Position numbers and translations under genes: made by a program. A DNA stretch of 28,249 bases from a virus, in the IMG/VR virus record IMGVR_UViG_3300030388_001346, positions 1 through 28,249 of that record; one strand, written 5' to 3'. Shown piece by piece: positions 13,752-28,249 of this stretch; the stretch's first letter is position 1, and the number at the start of each line of letters is the position of its first letter. The notes beneath the pieces are model-generated. The model worked only from the letters and a program-made list of their open reading frames with translations, had not been told where the DNA came from and ran no database searches.

Positions 13752-14072
13752 TCAATTACTTTCTAATTTTATTTTAACGGCTGAGTCTAAATATTCTCTA
13801 GCTTCAGGAAAATTAATAGCAGGTAACACTCCGTCTGCTAACCCTTCTTCTATTAGATTAATAAACTTTTCAATCTTTTTAATATTTTTTTGGCGTATAT
13901 AGTTTCCTCTAAACCAATTATGTATTGACATTCTTGAGACATTAAAACTATCTGCCACATACATAGTAGGTAAATTAGATTTAACGCAAATTTTTGCTAA
14001 TTGAACACCTAAATTATTAGAGTCCGCGTGATTTAATCCTAATAAAAATTTATCGCTATAAGGTCTAGGCAT
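13752..14072 (-). CDS. Helix-turn-helix DNA-binding protein
   Basis: The 106-aa protein contains a typical HTH stretch, LPTMYVADSFNVSRMSIHNWFRG (split here as LPTMYVADSFNVSR and MSIHNWFRG), where an Ala-Asp turn is followed by a recognition-helix pattern ending in WFRG. Such small HTH proteins sit beside replication genes in many phages. A regulatory or origin-binding role is possible, but nothing here decides it. The ATG at 14072 overlaps the stop of the upstream 283-aa gene by 8 bp, and the stop is one base before the primase start, so the three are almost certainly translated from one message. Confidence 0.85.
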   Translation of the reverse strand: MPRPYSDKFLLGLNHADSNNLGVQLAKICVKSNLPTMYVADSFNVSRMSIHNWFRGNYIRQKNIKKIEKFINLIEEGLADGVLPAINFPEAREYLDSAVKIKLESN

Positions 14073-23380: not shown

Positions 23381-23572
23381 TTATATTTTATAGGTTGACA
23401 TGTGTTCATCTCTGCATTGAGCAGTACACCAACGCCTTTTATCTTTTATTTTTACTCCACACCAAATACATTTACCTGTCTCATTATTTTCAATTGAAGT
23501 GTTGACTGTATTAAGGGTAAACTTAAGTCGGGCTTCCACTTCAGCATTAGCTATGTCTATTTCGTCAGCCAA
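23381..23572 (-). CDS. DksA/TraR-type zinc-finger protein
   Basis: The 63-aa protein starts MADEIDIANAEVEARL, the helical N-terminus typical of phage DksA/TraR-like proteins. It ends with a zinc finger C35-x2-C38-x10-C49-x3-C53 (KCIWCGVKI, then RRWCTAQCRDEH). TraR-type proteins bind the secondary channel of host RNA polymerase, so a role in host transcription control is plausible. The start is TTG 23572, nine bases after GGAGG. An ATG nine codons upstream (23599) would add MEWWWRNER, which does not fit the family. It overlaps the previous gene by 16 bp and ends ten bases before the polymerase start. Confidence 0.8.
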   Translation of the reverse strand: MADEIDIANAEVEARLKFTLNTVNTSIENNETGKCIWCGVKIKDKRRWCTAQCRDEHMSTYKI

Positions 23573-23784
23573 TCTTTCATTCCTCCACCACCATTCCATG
23601 AAGTGCTATTATTTCTAGTAGGTCTTTTCGCCGGTAGCTTTATTAATCCTTGCTTATCAAAGTCAACTAAGGTAGCGTACGCTATCCCTGTTGCTTGAGA
23701 TAATTTGTGCCTACTAAAGTTAGGTCGTTTCTCTTGCCACTCTTTAATTAGTTTAACTGCGGTTTCTTTTTCTGCTTCTTTCAT
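23557..23784 (-). CDS. Small HTH-like protein
   Basis: The 75-aa product has a probable DNA-binding helix pair, NFSRHKLSQATGIAYATLVDF, followed by GLIKLPAKRPTR, the usual shape of small phage MerR/HTH-like proteins in which a wing follows the recognition helix. The tail is Gly/Asn rich. AAGGAAGG precedes ATG 23784. It is the first gene after the 83-bp gap containing several dyads, so it might act on those sites; that is inference. Its 3' end overlaps the TraR-like gene. Confidence 0.77.
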   Translation of the reverse strand: MKEAEKETAVKLIKEWQEKRPNFSRHKLSQATGIAYATLVDFDKQGLIKLPAKRPTRNNSTSWNGGGGMKDWLTK

Positions 23785-23867
23785 TACCTTCCTTTATATT
23801 TATTTAACTTTCGCTGATTAGCGAATTCCTAGTAGGTAGCCTACGCGGGAACTGGCGATGCGTAGCA
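23785..23867 (-). promoter_or_regulatory. 83-bp leader with three dyads upstream of the HTH/TraR/polymerase genes
   Basis: The gap contains the 16-bp palindrome at 23810-23825, the hairpin GATGC-GTA-GCATC at 23857-23869 that overlaps the DUF3310 stop, and a competing pair CTACGC (23841-23846)/GCGTAG (23860-23865). The last two share bases and cannot form together. There is no U-run, so a classical terminator is not supported. I see no convincing -35/-10 pair. It may control the polymerase genes at the RNA or DNA level. Confidence 0.5.
23810..23825. repeat. 16-bp palindrome, copy 1
   Basis: TTCGCTGATTAGCGAA: six-base perfect arms around a GATT centre. Identical copies, in the same orientation, lie at 24884-24899 and 27921-27936. 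This copy is 25 bases ahead of the HTH gene start, between DUF3310 and the HTH gene. Confidence 0.95.
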
Positions 23868-24206
23868 TCAATCTTCACAAGTACCTCCAACACAATACTT
23901 ACCATTCAGTATTTCATCAGCTACATCATCAAGTGCTTGATGGTGTGCATCCGTAGTGTCTTTTAGTTTGGGTTGAGTGTCTTCATAAAATTCTTTGAGT
24001 TTGTTTGCGAACCATGATAGTTTACCGGCATCATTTATTGCATCCTGTTCAGTGCCTTTTAATCCTATTCGTGTATCGTATTTCATTATCGTACCTTTAA
24101 GATATCCTCTGTACTCTTCGTCTGTTAGTTTAGCACGAATAATTTTTATTGTTTCAATACCTTGTGTGTAGTGGGGGGGATTGTTTACTAAATCATCCTC
24201 GTTCAT
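23868..24206 (-). CDS. DUF3310-family protein
   Basis: The 112-aa protein contains the DUF3310 signature. NNPPHYTQGIETIKII is followed by GYLKGTIMKYDTRIGLKG and DAGKLSWFANKLKE. The family is widespread in phages and is sometimes labelled a nucleotide kinase in databases, but no P-loop is present here and the function is not established. The C-terminus ends KYCVGGTCED. It lies 13 bases after the VRR-NUC gene, with AAGAGA in front. Its stop is within a hairpin of the following leader. Confidence 0.9.
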   Translation of the reverse strand: MNEDDLVNNPPHYTQGIETIKIIRAKLTDEEYRGYLKGTIMKYDTRIGLKGTEQDAINDAGKLSWFANKLKEFYEDTQPKLKDTTDAHHQALDDVADEILNGKYCVGGTCED

Positions 24207-24219
24207 TTAAAGTCTCTTA

Positions 24220-24549
24220 TTATAATTGGTCTAACAATGACTCTAGCATATCTATATTATGCTCGTCAATTATTATTGAGAATCCTTTAGCAGTCTGAAT
24301 GTCTTTGAGATGTTTTCTTTGAAGTGCGGTTGGTCTACCTCCATTGGCTTTGCACTCTATACCAACGAATAATCCTTTGTAACAAGCAATGATATCAGGT
24401 ACTCCATTAGCACCATAGCCTCCCGTTGCGGGCATACAATGATAAGCACCTAGCTTATCTAATATACTTTTTACTTTAGTCTTAACTTTCTTTTCCGGTG
24501 TCATATTAGTATCATAACATAAGGTGCAGGGCCCGGCAGCAAATTGCAT
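24220..24549 (-). CDS. VRR-NUC-domain nuclease
   Basis: The 109-aa PD-(D/E)XK enzyme has the VRR-NUC core: GGYGANGVPDIIACYKG (D52), FVGIECKANGG (E65, K67) and TALQRKH (Q77). Phage VRR-NUC proteins are stand-alone and thought to cut branched DNA, often beside DUF2815, polymerase A and SNF2 helicase genes, as here. The start is uncertain. ATG 24549 gives 15 extra residues including two Cys, and ATG 24504 (MTPEKKVK) gives a typical family length. Neither has a good ribosome site, and the 38-bp gap upstream is pure AT-rich sequence. Confidence 0.92.
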   Translation of the reverse strand: MQFAAGPCTLCYDTNMTPEKKVKTKVKSILDKLGAYHCMPATGGYGANGVPDIIACYKGLFVGIECKANGGRPTALQRKHLKDIQTAKGFSIIIDEHNIDMLESLLDQL

Positions 24550-24587
24550 TTTTAATAGCTAAAAAAATTATTTAACTATGTTAATCA

Positions 24588-24983
24588 TTATGGCGAGCTG
24601 CGTATCAAGCTATGTATTTCTTTTTTGTCAAGCACAATAACATACATATTTTCAGATGCTCTCCATCCTATATGTGAAAGTTCTGTATCTTTTAGGTTAT
24701 TGTTAGTGCTTAAATAGGTTACATACATATCTACTTCATGGAGTTTATCGTCAATAATATAAGTATCAGATTGTGGTGATACACGTATTATAGATAGGTG
24801 AGTTTTAATTATAGGTGGGAGGGTATCAGAAGTATATATCCTGACAAGGTTATCAAATAGATATAATCTATAAGATGGGACGATTCGCTGATTAGCGAAA
24901 CATTGCTCCAAAGCCACAAGATAATATTGTGGCAGTCTAGGATGTGGCATTGGAGACATTGTGATGGGTTTATTATTAAACAA
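24588..24983 (-). CDS. Hypothetical protein of the VWA/orphan block (131 aa)
   Basis: No family is recognised. The product begins MFNNKPITMSPMPHPRLPQYYLVALE. Its middle is beta-rich (YRLYLFDNLVRIYTSD, TYIIDDKLHEVDMYVTYLS) and the end reads MYVIVLDKKEIHSLIRSSP. The likely start is TTG 24983, six or seven bases after AGGGGAAG and overlapping the upstream 375-aa gene by 8 bp. The next ATG (24959) has no ribosome site. Unusually, the second copy of the 16-bp palindrome is inside this gene (24884-24899) and is translated as part of CFANQRIVP. Confidence 0.7.
   Translation of the reverse strand: MFNNKPITMSPMPHPRLPQYYLVALEQCFANQRIVPSYRLYLFDNLVRIYTSDTLPPIIKTHLSIIRVSPQSDTYIIDDKLHEVDMYVTYLSTNNNLKDTELSHIGWRASENMYVIVLDKKEIHSLIRSSP
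24884..24899. repeat. 16-bp palindrome, copy 2, inside a reading frame
   Basis: TTCGCTGATTAGCGAA, identical to copies 1 and 3, with the preceding base A shared with copy 3. On the coding strand it reads in frame as FANQR, part of CFANQRI in the 131-aa protein. Confidence 0.95.
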
Positions 24984-26103
24984 TAACTTCCCCTACATTA
25001 GGGATACCTAACCATATAGAAGTAAAATGTGGGTTAGTTTCCTGTTCAATAATATTTACCCCATTATTCTTTAGAAGTGTTTTCCGTAATGCTGAATCAC
25101 GATATTTACTAAAGGGGATAAAGCCATGAAGGTTTGATTTATCTTCCATAGCCATTTTCATCATAACAACTGTTGAAGCAAGAACATCAAAATATTTTGA
25201 GTCTTCAATTGTTTTAATATACTCTTGGTCTTTAATAATAAACATATACTTTAATGATGAATTCATACCCTCTTGCCAAGTTTCCATCTTTTTAAATGCA
25301 CCTTTAATGACAACTAAACTATCAGAATTACTAGCACCAATTAAATGTATATCAGACTCTAAAATGTTATGAGTAAAAGATTTATCTAACTGCTCTATAG
25401 CATTATTTACTTTGTCTATCTTTAGTGAAGCTTCATTTAATTCTTGGCTAACTTCATGGGATAGTGGTTCTTTCTTTGTAACATTAAGAAACATAGCCTT
25501 CACTTGTTTTTTATTAAAATGATAAGCATCATCGACCTGATACTCCCAGTCGTGTTTAGATAAACCCTCATGTAAAACTGTAAAGTCATTACGGGTAGGT
25601 GTGTATCTTTTAGGCATAGCATCTCTCTTCTTTATCCCCTTCATAATTTGAGCAACTTTAAAAGATTTAAGTGTTCGCTTATCGGTATCTGTTGTACCCC
25701 TTTCTTTAACATCTTTAGAAAGTCTAATACAAAATAATAAGTTATCACTTGTTAAAGAATGAGTACAATAAACTGCACCATAAGGTACACCATTGAATCC
25801 TAGCATAAAACAATCTTTAGATAATTCGGATTTGCTTGTTACATTATCTTCCTTATCATGTTGTTCTTGCTCTTCCAAATCCTTCCATTTACTTGAATTT
25901 GGATTATGAATCTTCTCATAATAATAGGCAGGTTTATCCTCATAGTTTCGTTCATCATATACAATCTGTAAACCCAATGGTCTCATTACCTCAACTCCAT
26001 AGAGATGGTGCAACTCGGCTATCAATGGTAAAGTTTTTGAGTCCTTTACCATCTTATTTAATTCTTTAGATTGCATACACTTACTAATATAATCTTTATT
26101 CAT
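24976..26103 (-). CDS. Orphan protein of the VWA block (375 aa)
   Basis: I do not recognise this protein. It is well formed and long for an orphan. It has a helical, charged N-terminal region (LNKMVKDSKTLPLIAELHHL), a mixed middle with CFMLGFNGVPYGAVYCTHS, a coiled-coil-like stretch (ASLKIDKVNNAIEQLDKS), and a C-terminal part with KYMFIIKDQEYIKTI and HFTSIWLGIPNVGEVIV. Neither a Walker motif nor a catalytic triad is obvious. It follows the 81-aa gene with a TAATG stop/start and GGAGAGG in front, and precedes the 131-aa gene. Because it is coupled to the VWA/MoxR genes it may be a partner or client of that pair; this is inference. Confidence 0.8.
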   Translation of the reverse strand: MNKDYISKCMQSKELNKMVKDSKTLPLIAELHHLYGVEVMRPLGLQIVYDERNYEDKPAYYYEKIHNPNSSKWKDLEEQEQHDKEDNVTSKSELSKDCFMLGFNGVPYGAVYCTHSLTSDNLLFCIRLSKDVKERGTTDTDKRTLKSFKVAQIMKGIKKRDAMPKRYTPTRNDFTVLHEGLSKHDWEYQVDDAYHFNKKQVKAMFLNVTKKEPLSHEVSQELNEASLKIDKVNNAIEQLDKSFTHNILESDIHLIGASNSDSLVVIKGAFKKMETWQEGMNSSLKYMFIIKDQEYIKTIEDSKYFDVLASTVVMMKMAMEDKSNLHGFIPFSKYRDSALRKTLLKNNGVNIIEQETNPHFTSIWLGIPNVGEVIV

Positions 26104-26348
26104 TAGTCCTCTCCTTCAAATTTAAAAGTAATAACATCTTCATCTAATACTTCTACTTCTTTACCCCCCATGATGTGTTTAGTGGCATCATCTATTAGTT
26201 CATCTATTGCTAGATTGCTCAACTCAATAGACTCAGCACTAACGGTTATATCAACACCATCATCTTTTTTCTTAACAACCATAAACTTTAAGTCACTTGT
26301 ATCTATATAAACATAATCTACATCTTCCGGCTTAAATTTAACTTTCAT
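26103..26348 (-). CDS. Small acidic hypothetical protein (81 aa)
   Basis: The product is acidic and mainly beta in appearance (VDYVYIDTSDLKFMVVKKKDDGVDITVSAESIEL) with a C-terminal helix and EVEVLDEDVITFKFEGED. No family is known to me. It overlaps the upstream acidic gene by 11 bp and the 375-aa gene as TAATG. Confidence 0.7.
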   Translation of the reverse strand: MKVKFKPEDVDYVYIDTSDLKFMVVKKKDDGVDITVSAESIELSNLAIDELIDDATKHIMGGKEVEVLDEDVITFKFEGED

Positions 26349-26466
26349 CTTGTTCTCTCTCCTCTTGTTCTTCTTGTTTTCTTAACCAATTATCATCATT
26401 GATGGCATCATAATCAGGCTCGTAACTATCTCTTGGTTCCGGTGGATTTACATCTCTTTCAGTCAT
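26338..26466 (-). CDS. Small highly acidic protein (42 aa)
   Basis: The frame from ATG 26466 to the TAA at 26340-26338 encodes a peptide starting MTERDVNPPEPRDSYEPDYD and ending LRKQEEQEEREQDES. It is Glu/Asp/Gln rich, with one Trp. The start forms TAATG with the stop of the upstream membrane gene, and the 3' end overlaps the 81-aa gene by 11 bp, so the frame continues the chain of couplings and fills a gap of more than 100 bases. Low complexity means no function can be given. Confidence 0.68.
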   Translation of the reverse strand: MTERDVNPPEPRDSYEPDYDAINDDNWLRKQEEQEEREQDES

Positions 26467-26693
26467 TACTCACCCCCTATAATAATATCTGTGTCAATAC
26501 ACTCGGTATCGGTTTTTAAATAGACACTTGCACCATAATTTGCTTGTTCAAATGCCCTACCTTTTTGGCACACCACCTCGCTAGGTGTGGTATTCGATTG
26601 CCATGTCTCAAAGATATGTAATAACCCCATGCCTACAAGACTACCTATAAATAATCCTGTTGCTAACCATGTTGCACTATTGTTTTTATTCAT
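26466..26693 (-). CDS. Small single-pass membrane protein
   Basis: The 75-aa product begins MNKNNSATWLATGLFIGSL followed by VGMGLLHIF, a clear single transmembrane helix after a short basic N-terminus. An outside domain of about 40 residues carries two Cys (EVVCQKGRAF and TDTECIDTD) that could form a disulphide. ATG 26693 is preferred: AGGAG stands ten bases upstream, and the hydrophobic helix begins at a normal distance. A longer form from 26735 would overlap the VWA gene by 14 bp. The role is unknown. Lysis-related function is possible for any small phage membrane protein but is not supported by a specific motif. Confidence 0.75.
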   Translation of the reverse strand: MNKNNSATWLATGLFIGSLVGMGLLHIFETWQSNTTPSEVVCQKGRAFEQANYGASVYLKTDTECIDTDIIIGGE

Positions 26694-26721
26694 GTTCACT
26701 CTACTCCTATGATTAAAAAGT

Positions 26722-27906
26722 TTAATTGTCTTCATACTTTACTACTTTGCCACTTGGTGCTTTGAAACTTCTACTCTCTGTTACCACCCACAATGTAGGG
26801 GAAGATATATCCCACTGAATCTTCGGCTCTACATATCCATCAGTGAAAACAATAACGGCATCTGCATTGATATTGTTCTCATTAATATATTTACTAACAC
26901 ATGAGACCTTAGTACCTCCACCCCCTTTAGGTTTAAGTACATGTGCAAGGTTGGTATAATCTTCAAGCACTTGTTCACCATGTACTTCATAGTCCCACCA
27001 TATAACTCTCACTCTATCCGGCGAGGTTACATCACATATAGATACCAACTCAGTAACAAATACTGATAGTTCTCTAGCACCTATCGAACCGGATGTATCA
27101 ATCGCTACCACCAACTCACCAATCGTTTCGTTCTCTAGGGATGGTAGGTAGAGATTGTTTGCCACCATACGCTTGTTAAACCTCCGCCATGTAAACTCAT
27201 CCGTACCCCTAATCGATGTTGATACAAAATCTCTTAACACATCTTGCCATCTAACTTTAGGCTCTAACATATCAGAAATAGCACGAGGTGTTTTACCCCC
27301 TAGCTTTCCGGCTAACATACTTCCTTCGCGTAAGGCAGCGTCTACTTTCTCAGTATGTTTTTTTACTTCCTGCGGTGTCATAGATTTAGTAAAGTCATGT
27401 TCATCAAGCGAACCCTTACCATGTTTCTTTTGAAACTCTTTAGGGTTTTCTTTCTGTTGCTTTTCCAAATCTTTAATAACATCATTCACACTCCAGTCGT
27501 GGTACTTCACATCATAAAATGCACCCTCCGGTAATGATACGGATTTAGTTTGGCTATCACTCTCATATATATCTAAGTGATTGATAATGTCATTCACCAC
27601 ATAGTCACATGCTATGTTAGTTAGTTCAGGGTTTTTCTTCATCTGACTTTTAAACCGTACCGGATGGTTCAATGCACAATGTTCTGTCTCGTGCATCACC
27701 AGTCCCCGCACCTCATACTTACTTAACCCCTCAATAAACTTTCTACCATAATACTTATTCACCCCATCCGTACATGCGGTTGGACAATCATCCACTACTT
27801 TGTTATCACCCATCAACATCACACCGGAATACAAAGCAGTTTCTTTTTGTCTCATAAGCCATATGGTAGCTTTCTTTACTGATACTTCTGCCGTTTCTAT
27901 ATTCAT
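26722..27906 (-). CDS. VWA protein with N-terminal zincin-like metallopeptidase domain (DUF2201-like)
   Basis: The 394-aa protein has two parts. The N-terminal half carries the zinc motif HETEH (H72, E73, H76) in GLVMHETEHCALNHP, as in the putative metallopeptidase half of DUF2201 proteins. The C-terminal half is a von Willebrand factor A-like domain with the MIDAS motif AIDTSGSIG (D270, S272, S274), plus GGGGTKV and VIVFTDGYVE as later metal-site segments. Such proteins pair with MoxR-type AAA+ ATPases, and a MoxR-like fragment lies directly upstream. The family is thought to remodel or mature other proteins, but the phage substrate is unknown. GGGGAGAG precedes ATG 27906, and the third palindrome copy lies 14 bases upstream. 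Confidence 0.9.
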   Translation of the reverse strand: MNIETAEVSVKKATIWLMRQKETALYSGVMLMGDNKVVDDCPTACTDGVNKYYGRKFIEGLSKYEVRGLVMHETEHCALNHPVRFKSQMKKNPELTNIACDYVVNDIINHLDIYESDSQTKSVSLPEGAFYDVKYHDWSVNDVIKDLEKQQKENPKEFQKKHGKGSLDEHDFTKSMTPQEVKKHTEKVDAALREGSMLAGKLGGKTPRAISDMLEPKVRWQDVLRDFVSTSIRGTDEFTWRRFNKRMVANNLYLPSLENETIGELVVAIDTSGSIGARELSVFVTELVSICDVTSPDRVRVIWWDYEVHGEQVLEDYTNLAHVLKPKGGGGTKVSCVSKYINENNINADAVIVFTDGYVEPKIQWDISSPTLWVVTESRSFKAPSGKVVKYEDN

Positions 27907-27920
27907 ATCTCTCCCCTCTA

Positions 27921-27936
27921 TTCGCTGATTAGCGAA
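27921..27936. repeat. 16-bp palindrome, copy 3
   Basis: TTCGCTGATTAGCGAA in the 33-bp gap between the MoxR-like gene stop and the VWA gene start, immediately before the ribosome site. Identical and equally oriented to copies 1 and 2. Confidence 0.95.
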
Positions 27937-27939
27937 TGA

Positions 27940-28249
27940 TTAAAATAACACATGGTTAGATGTACACCACTTGGCAACTTCTTGATTACCCCTTGCAAAC
28001 TTCTGACAAGTATGGTGTCTCATTATCATAGTGAAAAAGGTTGCTTGTATCTCTTCACTACCAATACGTTTTATATACTTCATAACCGCAGTCAAATCAG
28101 ATGGTGATTTAATTTTGTCACTTGCTTGAAACATAAGAAACAACTGAGCCGATATACTTTCCGGCACCGGTGTCGTATCCGGACTCTTCACTATCTCATC
28201 AAAGGTAGGTAGTTCTTTCTCTAGTCTCAAGAAAGCATCCATGTCTCTA
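27940..28249 (-). CDS. MoxR-like AAA+ ATPase, C-terminal fragment
   Basis: The frame is open to the window edge, and the first ATG (28242) is internal: the residues before it read RD, giving RDMDAFLRLEKELPTFDEIV. This is followed by VPESISAQLFLMFQASDKI, LTAVMKYIKRIGSEEIQATFF and a C-terminal EVAKWCTSNHVLF. The order fits the lid and C-terminal helices of MoxR-like AAA+ ATPases from phages, and the adjoining VWA gene is the normal partner. The Walker motifs would be beyond the right edge, so the assignment depends on the C-terminal pattern and the neighbour. Confidence 0.7.
   Translation of the reverse strand, partial: RDMDAFLRLEKELPTFDEIVKSPDTTPVPESISAQLFLMFQASDKIKSPSDLTAVMKYIKRIGSEEIQATFFTMIMRHHTCQKFARGNQEVAKWCTSNHVLF

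Follow-up and report, generated by a model that had tools for sequence, protein, structure and literature searches.

The CI/Cro-type operators of lambdoid phages are dyads of 14–18 bp, with half-sites around a weakly constrained centre and specificities that define immunity groups; they are few, and are placed around one switch. Cluster A mycobacteriophages carry stoperators—asymmetric 13-bp sites, oriented with transcription and numbering 20–30 per genome—at which the known immunity repressor blocks elongation (PMC6550527). The phage SPbeta contains SPBRE, a repeated 15-bp motif; about ten of the phage's genes have it in their promoter regions, and it was recognised in the sequence many years ahead of its regulator MrpR, a repressor with the tyrosine-recombinase fold (PMC10516654).

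The DNA analysed here (the window) is the whole 28,249-nucleotide stretch from IMG/VR record IMGVR_UViG_3300030388_001346, a 28-kb viral fragment, and is identical to record L006. It encodes polA, a Gp2.5-like SSB, a primase/helicase, a helicase, a MoxR-like ATPase and a VWA/DUF2201 protein. The nearest relatives of its polA form a large group of environmental contigs, and the nearest isolates are Rhizobium phage RHph_TM3_14A and Pseudomonas phage KPP25, at about 35%. The polA of contig L252 (JABAZY010000021.1) is 74% identical to that of the window, and the binning of this contig as an alphaproteobacterial MAG is a weak hint of an alphaproteobacterial host group. Two further repeats were seen in the window: three 75-bp direct repeats at 2360-2677, at the 5' end of a 2789-aa ORF, in which the peptide WLPEELNELGLPIAGYE is repeated, and a second small palindrome, GATGCGTAGCATC, at 23855-23867, roughly 30 bp away from copy 1 of the dyad. 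The features discussed below are as follows.

13752..14072, minus strand: conserved HTH_3-like protein, rejected as the specificity-varying regulator
23557..23784, minus strand: 75-aa gene with a weak MerR-like HTH, downstream of dyad copy 1, rejected as the cognate regulator
23810..23825, minus strand: dyad copy 1, in the leader of the 75-aa HTH-like gene
24588..24983, minus strand: 131-aa ORF containing dyad copy 2
24884..24899, minus strand: dyad copy 2, within ORF 24588-24983, with the look of an 18-bp in-frame insertion
26722..27906, minus strand: VWA/DUF2201 metallopeptidase-like gene, with a dyad in its leader in several lineages
27920..27937, minus strand: dyad copy 3 (18 bp including the outer pair), in the VWA/DUF2201 leader just 5' of the ribosome site
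27940..28242, minus strand: C-terminal part of the MoxR-like ATPase gene, whose L012 counterpart has an exact dyad copy in its leader

The original prediction was of one 16-mer at three places, and TTCGCTGATTAGCGAA is indeed found exactly at 23810-23825, 24884-24899 and 27921-27936. The repetition is beyond chance, as had been claimed: 0.20 sites are expected in the window at ≤3 mismatches, and at that threshold the window has no further site beyond the same three read in reverse. The window by itself suffices to make the dyad significant (log10 corrected p −5.3; 0 in shuffles). The window genes around the dyads run on the minus strand, and so the palindrome reads TTCGCTAATCAGCGAA in the sense direction. 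Two copies lie in leaders, again as predicted, copy 1 being 26 nt before the start of the 75-aa gene and copy 3 15 nt before the VWA gene. Copy 2 encodes FANQR within its predicted ORF; most homologues that align across it have a gap of about 4–6 residues at CFANQR, and in these alignments it looks like an 18-bp in-frame insertion. All three copies share one orientation, and every dyad centre in the window's lineage is A/G heterologous, a feature that no purely symmetric operator would need. The shared orientation, to which the original prediction gave weight, is, however, no rule: L004:33 and L007:938, which are orthologous places, have identical flanks and opposite centres (AATC and GATT), so the orientation of the dyad is free, and at L004:970 the dyad is reversed relative to the gene.

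A search of related genomes for the 16-mer, suggested with the original prediction, gave seven further copies in L012, L004 and L007/L010 (one orthologous pair counted twice): three in L004, two in the L007/L010 contig, and one exact copy plus one variant in L012. Those of L004 and L007/L010 surround a gene of 268–279 aa beside the terminase. The exact copy in L012, where the VWA protein is 98% identical, lies in the MoxR leader. The L012 site orthologous to window copy 3 reads TGTCGCTAATCAGCGACA, against ATTCGCTAATCAGCGAAT in the window; both outer pairs are changed symmetrically, and the flanks have 6 mismatches in 240 positions. Ten more single matches in viral_contigs (L005, L008, L009, L011 and L013–L018) are all on contigs with no detectable window genes; since their number is about the chance level, they were treated as chance rather than as sites of relatives. 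Four of them (L005, L009, L014 and L018) have one identical context near a helicase-like ORF of another phage and were taken as unrelated.

The statement that no feature class explains the palindrome is true of the window taken alone; with relatives in the comparison it fails. Most related phages with a sampled early region (terminase to DNA polymerase) have a 15–20 bp dyad of their own, present in 3 to about 40 copies per genome and different in sequence in each lineage. Repeated-palindrome entries number 44 in the real loci, some of these being overlapping loci or loci from the same contig, versus 2 in one shuffle of all loci; almost no such dyads turn up in Markov-2 shuffles or in ten other contigs, and a half-site scan with a variable centre extended the set of lineages having dyads. 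Examples are GCTGAGA-n2-TCTCAGC (nine copies), CCTGACA-n3-TGTCAGG (ten), TTTCGTAC-n-GTACGAAA (nine) and TTTCATAC-n-GTATGAAA (12). The isolated Rhizobium phage RHph_TM3_14A has 41 copies at ≤2 mismatches of GTTACCT-n4-AGGTAAC, given in full as GTTACCTTTCGAGGTAAC. A matrix of the 82 half-sites reads G T T A C C T Y, and neither A4 nor C5 ever varies. The dyads range over the terminase–polA interval in most lineages and over the whole genome in RHph_TM3_14A. L023 and L020, with polA 78–79% identical to that of the window, bear two copies and one copy, respectively, of other lineages' dyads, so operator type does not track polA. KPP25 and several of the contigs scanned have no repeated dyad, and G016 has a weak one only. 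Relatives with the same genes but without this palindrome had been named as the finding that would count against the original prediction; such relatives exist, but many bear a palindrome of their own instead.

At orthologous sites the flanks are kept and the dyad is changed. The operator GGGACTAAATAGTCCC of L023/L099 corresponds to AAGTATAAATATACAT in L180, with 8 of 16 operator positions changed and 4 of 236 in the flanks (Fisher 1.6e-8), and two more L180 sites are likewise changed. L180 and G001 are mostly 88–97% identical over 10 kb that include MoxR, VWA, a 306-aa gene and polA, so the specificity determinant is probably elsewhere. The dyads of L135 (GCTGAGATTTCTCAGC) and L141 (CGTGACATATGTCACG) differ at three clear orthologous places with the flanks kept, and half-sites have changed symmetrically at orthologous places from TTTCATAC in L183 to TTTCGTAC in L185/L186. 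Between L185 and L186 the centre base alone varies where the flanks are nearly identical. As judged from these comparisons, all copies within one genome appear to have changed together.

The dyads are placed mostly between genes (59 of 87 intergenic, versus 14.0 expected), and 42 of the 87 are ≤60 nt upstream of a start codon, mostly at 11–36 nt. The VWA leader has a dyad in the window, L012, L182, L183 and L185–L187, and the sequences differ. The RHph_TM3_14A loci (L237/L238) contain 44 dyads at ≤3 mismatches, often 2–6 nt before start codons, so that the ribosome site shares bases with the right arm AGGTAA. No excess of sigma-70 promoters was found near dyads (19 vs 19.9 in shuffles), which counts against operators, and no Rho-independent terminator (GC-rich stem and T run) was called at the three window sites. 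Several lineages also have in common, in the non-coding stretch after the first early gene, a motif translating as (M)FQCSNVP, which may be a conserved non-coding element.

(M)FQCSNVP-motif stretches: L099:6341-6511, L109:2411-2617, L141:1859-2083 and L102:4324-4590

What is observed directly is that the dyads are repeated, symmetric, specific to each lineage and placed upstream of starts, that the flanks stay while the operator changes, and that the changes are symmetric. On this comparative evidence, the palindrome is probably the operator of a dimeric, phage-encoded DNA-binding regulator of quickly changing specificity, whose sites are lineage-specific and change together. An operator for a phage regulator in leaders was among the candidates first put forward, and is the one best supported by the leader placement and the lineage series. 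We infer that a protein binds the dyad DNA and acts as a repressor or silencer. A dimeric regulator of this kind would bind dyads at several early-region leaders and a few other points from the terminase genes to polA; bound beside a transcription start or ribosome site, it would switch these genes together, and the operator sequence would be proper to each lineage through joint change of regulator and operators. Isolation of RHph_TM3_14A, with its 41 to 44 copies, makes this reading testable.

It is improbable that the sites are instead small mobile palindromes, elements of 16–18 bp that are copied to new places and of which each lineage has amplified its own. The apparent in-frame insertion at copy 2, absent from homologues, is what such an element would leave, as are the short-indel empty sites at L012:2465 (compared with L031/L035) and L186:8819 (compared with L185), and the asymmetric centre (AATC/GATT) is identical in all copies of the window's lineage. 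Against this, orthologous positions carry different palindromes in different lineages within conserved flanks, the centres of orthologous copies in L185 and L186 vary freely, leader placement is strong, and neither a transposase nor a target duplication was seen. The gap in homologues at copy 2 and the few empty leader sites suggest that new operators may arise via short insertions, and copying could be their source; the mobile candidate of the original prediction thus keeps a small probability. That the element is purely selfish is less likely, since lineages with differing sequences hold their dyads at orthologous positions.

Slightly less credible again is a role in RNA, as a hairpin close to the ribosome site that shields the mRNA 5' end or is the target of a phage RNA-binding protein. 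The dyads are just upstream of ribosome sites, the L012 outer pairs are compensatory, and the 16-mer folds at −5.5 kcal/mol, but for the L180 orthologue the figure is only −0.8 kcal/mol, centres in other lineages are 6–8 nt, and in the 41-copy set of RHph_TM3_14A the arms have 28 broken versus 15 wobble pairs, with wobble not preferred. Many dyads, moreover, are in coding DNA or away from leaders, and there is no Rfam match up to E 0.5. The folding energy and the lack of wobble preference weaken this candidate, and a DNA operator is the simpler reading. A promoter for a phage RNA polymerase, such as an N4-type hairpin read by a polymerase with a specificity of its own in each lineage, is very improbable: the early-region placement and short distance to start codons fit it, but dyads lie inside genes as well and point either way relative to them, the centre is unconstrained in several lineages, and the giant 2789-aa protein, considered as an N4-type polymerase, matched no polymerase structure.

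If the dyads are operators, their regulator is probably neither of the HTH proteins originally proposed for binding. The product of 23557-23784 has 96% and 95% identical copies in L022 and L044, which are without the window dyad, and the recognition helix of 13752-14072 is nearly invariant across lineages with different dyads. No known DNA-binding domain common to the early regions was found among the standard families searched; HTH_3, Sigma70_r4 and HTH_17 were rejected since the early regions do not share them, and the HTH_3 matches include g106 homologues, in which the helix is invariant, and scattered weak ones, none in early regions.

Next to the small terminase gene lies one for a hypervariable protein (10–28% identity in most pairs), often flanked by dyads. 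Similarity of this first early protein tracks the operator rather than the terminase. The first early proteins are clearly homologous in the same-operator pairs L004–L007, L150–G008, G003–L186, L112–L118 and L114–G011, the last sharing both at a TerL identity of 83%. Operator and first early protein both differ in L141–L150 (TerL 98%) and L004–L099 (TerL 96%), and in pairs with terminases 94–98% identical and different operators the first early proteins are mostly unrelated; L135 and L141, whose operators have a TGA-n-A core in common, have weakly related ones. The permutation p for the protein–operator association is 5e-5 with relatedness ignored, and more weight attaches to the contrast with TerL identity. 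Two cases are awkward: L109 has the CCTGACA half-site with different centres and an unrelated candidate protein, and L251 lacks a repeated dyad although its candidate is related to that of L099. Given these exceptions, we offer as a tentative hypothesis that the hypervariable early protein (L004:141-947 in the window lineage, outside the window) is the regulator. It has no recognised fold: the model of the L141 candidate, of moderate quality (pLDDT 73.3), gave no convincing structure match and no listed tyrosine-recombinase fold, and the L004 model is too poor (pLDDT 45.7). The lack of a match for a model of such quality is no evidence of a new fold.

Compared with the systems described above, the dyads are like lambdoid operators in their similar length, their half-sites and weakly constrained centre, and a specificity that would divide relatives into groups, and differ from them in being dispersed through the early region without a recognisable HTH repressor. 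Like stoperators they are many short dispersed sites per genome with a consensus that differs between relatives, and the series may be likened to the way the stoperator consensus tracks regulator divergence; unlike stoperators they are dyads of 15–20 bp, lie in either orientation and are mostly in the early region (genome-wide in RHph_TM3_14A). Like SPBRE, they are a repeated phage motif recognised from sequence ahead of any regulator, whereas SPBRE belongs to a single phage and has a known repressor. By analogy, the dyad system would work most like Cluster A stoperators (PMC6550527) or SPBRE (PMC10516654); we do not file it under either, because its symmetry and orientation are unlike those of stoperators and no homologous regulator was found. 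A prior description of such palindromes was not found in the literature searched, which covered few subscription journals.

More speculative, and on balance unlikely, is the larger proposal that the hypervariable protein of no recognised fold represents a new DNA-binding family that switches specificity as a set with dispersed operators in near-identical genomes, the operators being gained or rewritten by short-palindrome copying. Phages not known as temperate would then, in effect, have a system of immunity groups. If the interpretation offered here is true, a large and mostly uncultured group of marine phages would hold dozens of natural regulator–operator specificities, among them near-identical genomes that differ only in operators. 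These would form a ready data set on the joint change of a regulator and several dispersed sites, and would point to an unrecognised family of DNA-binding proteins.
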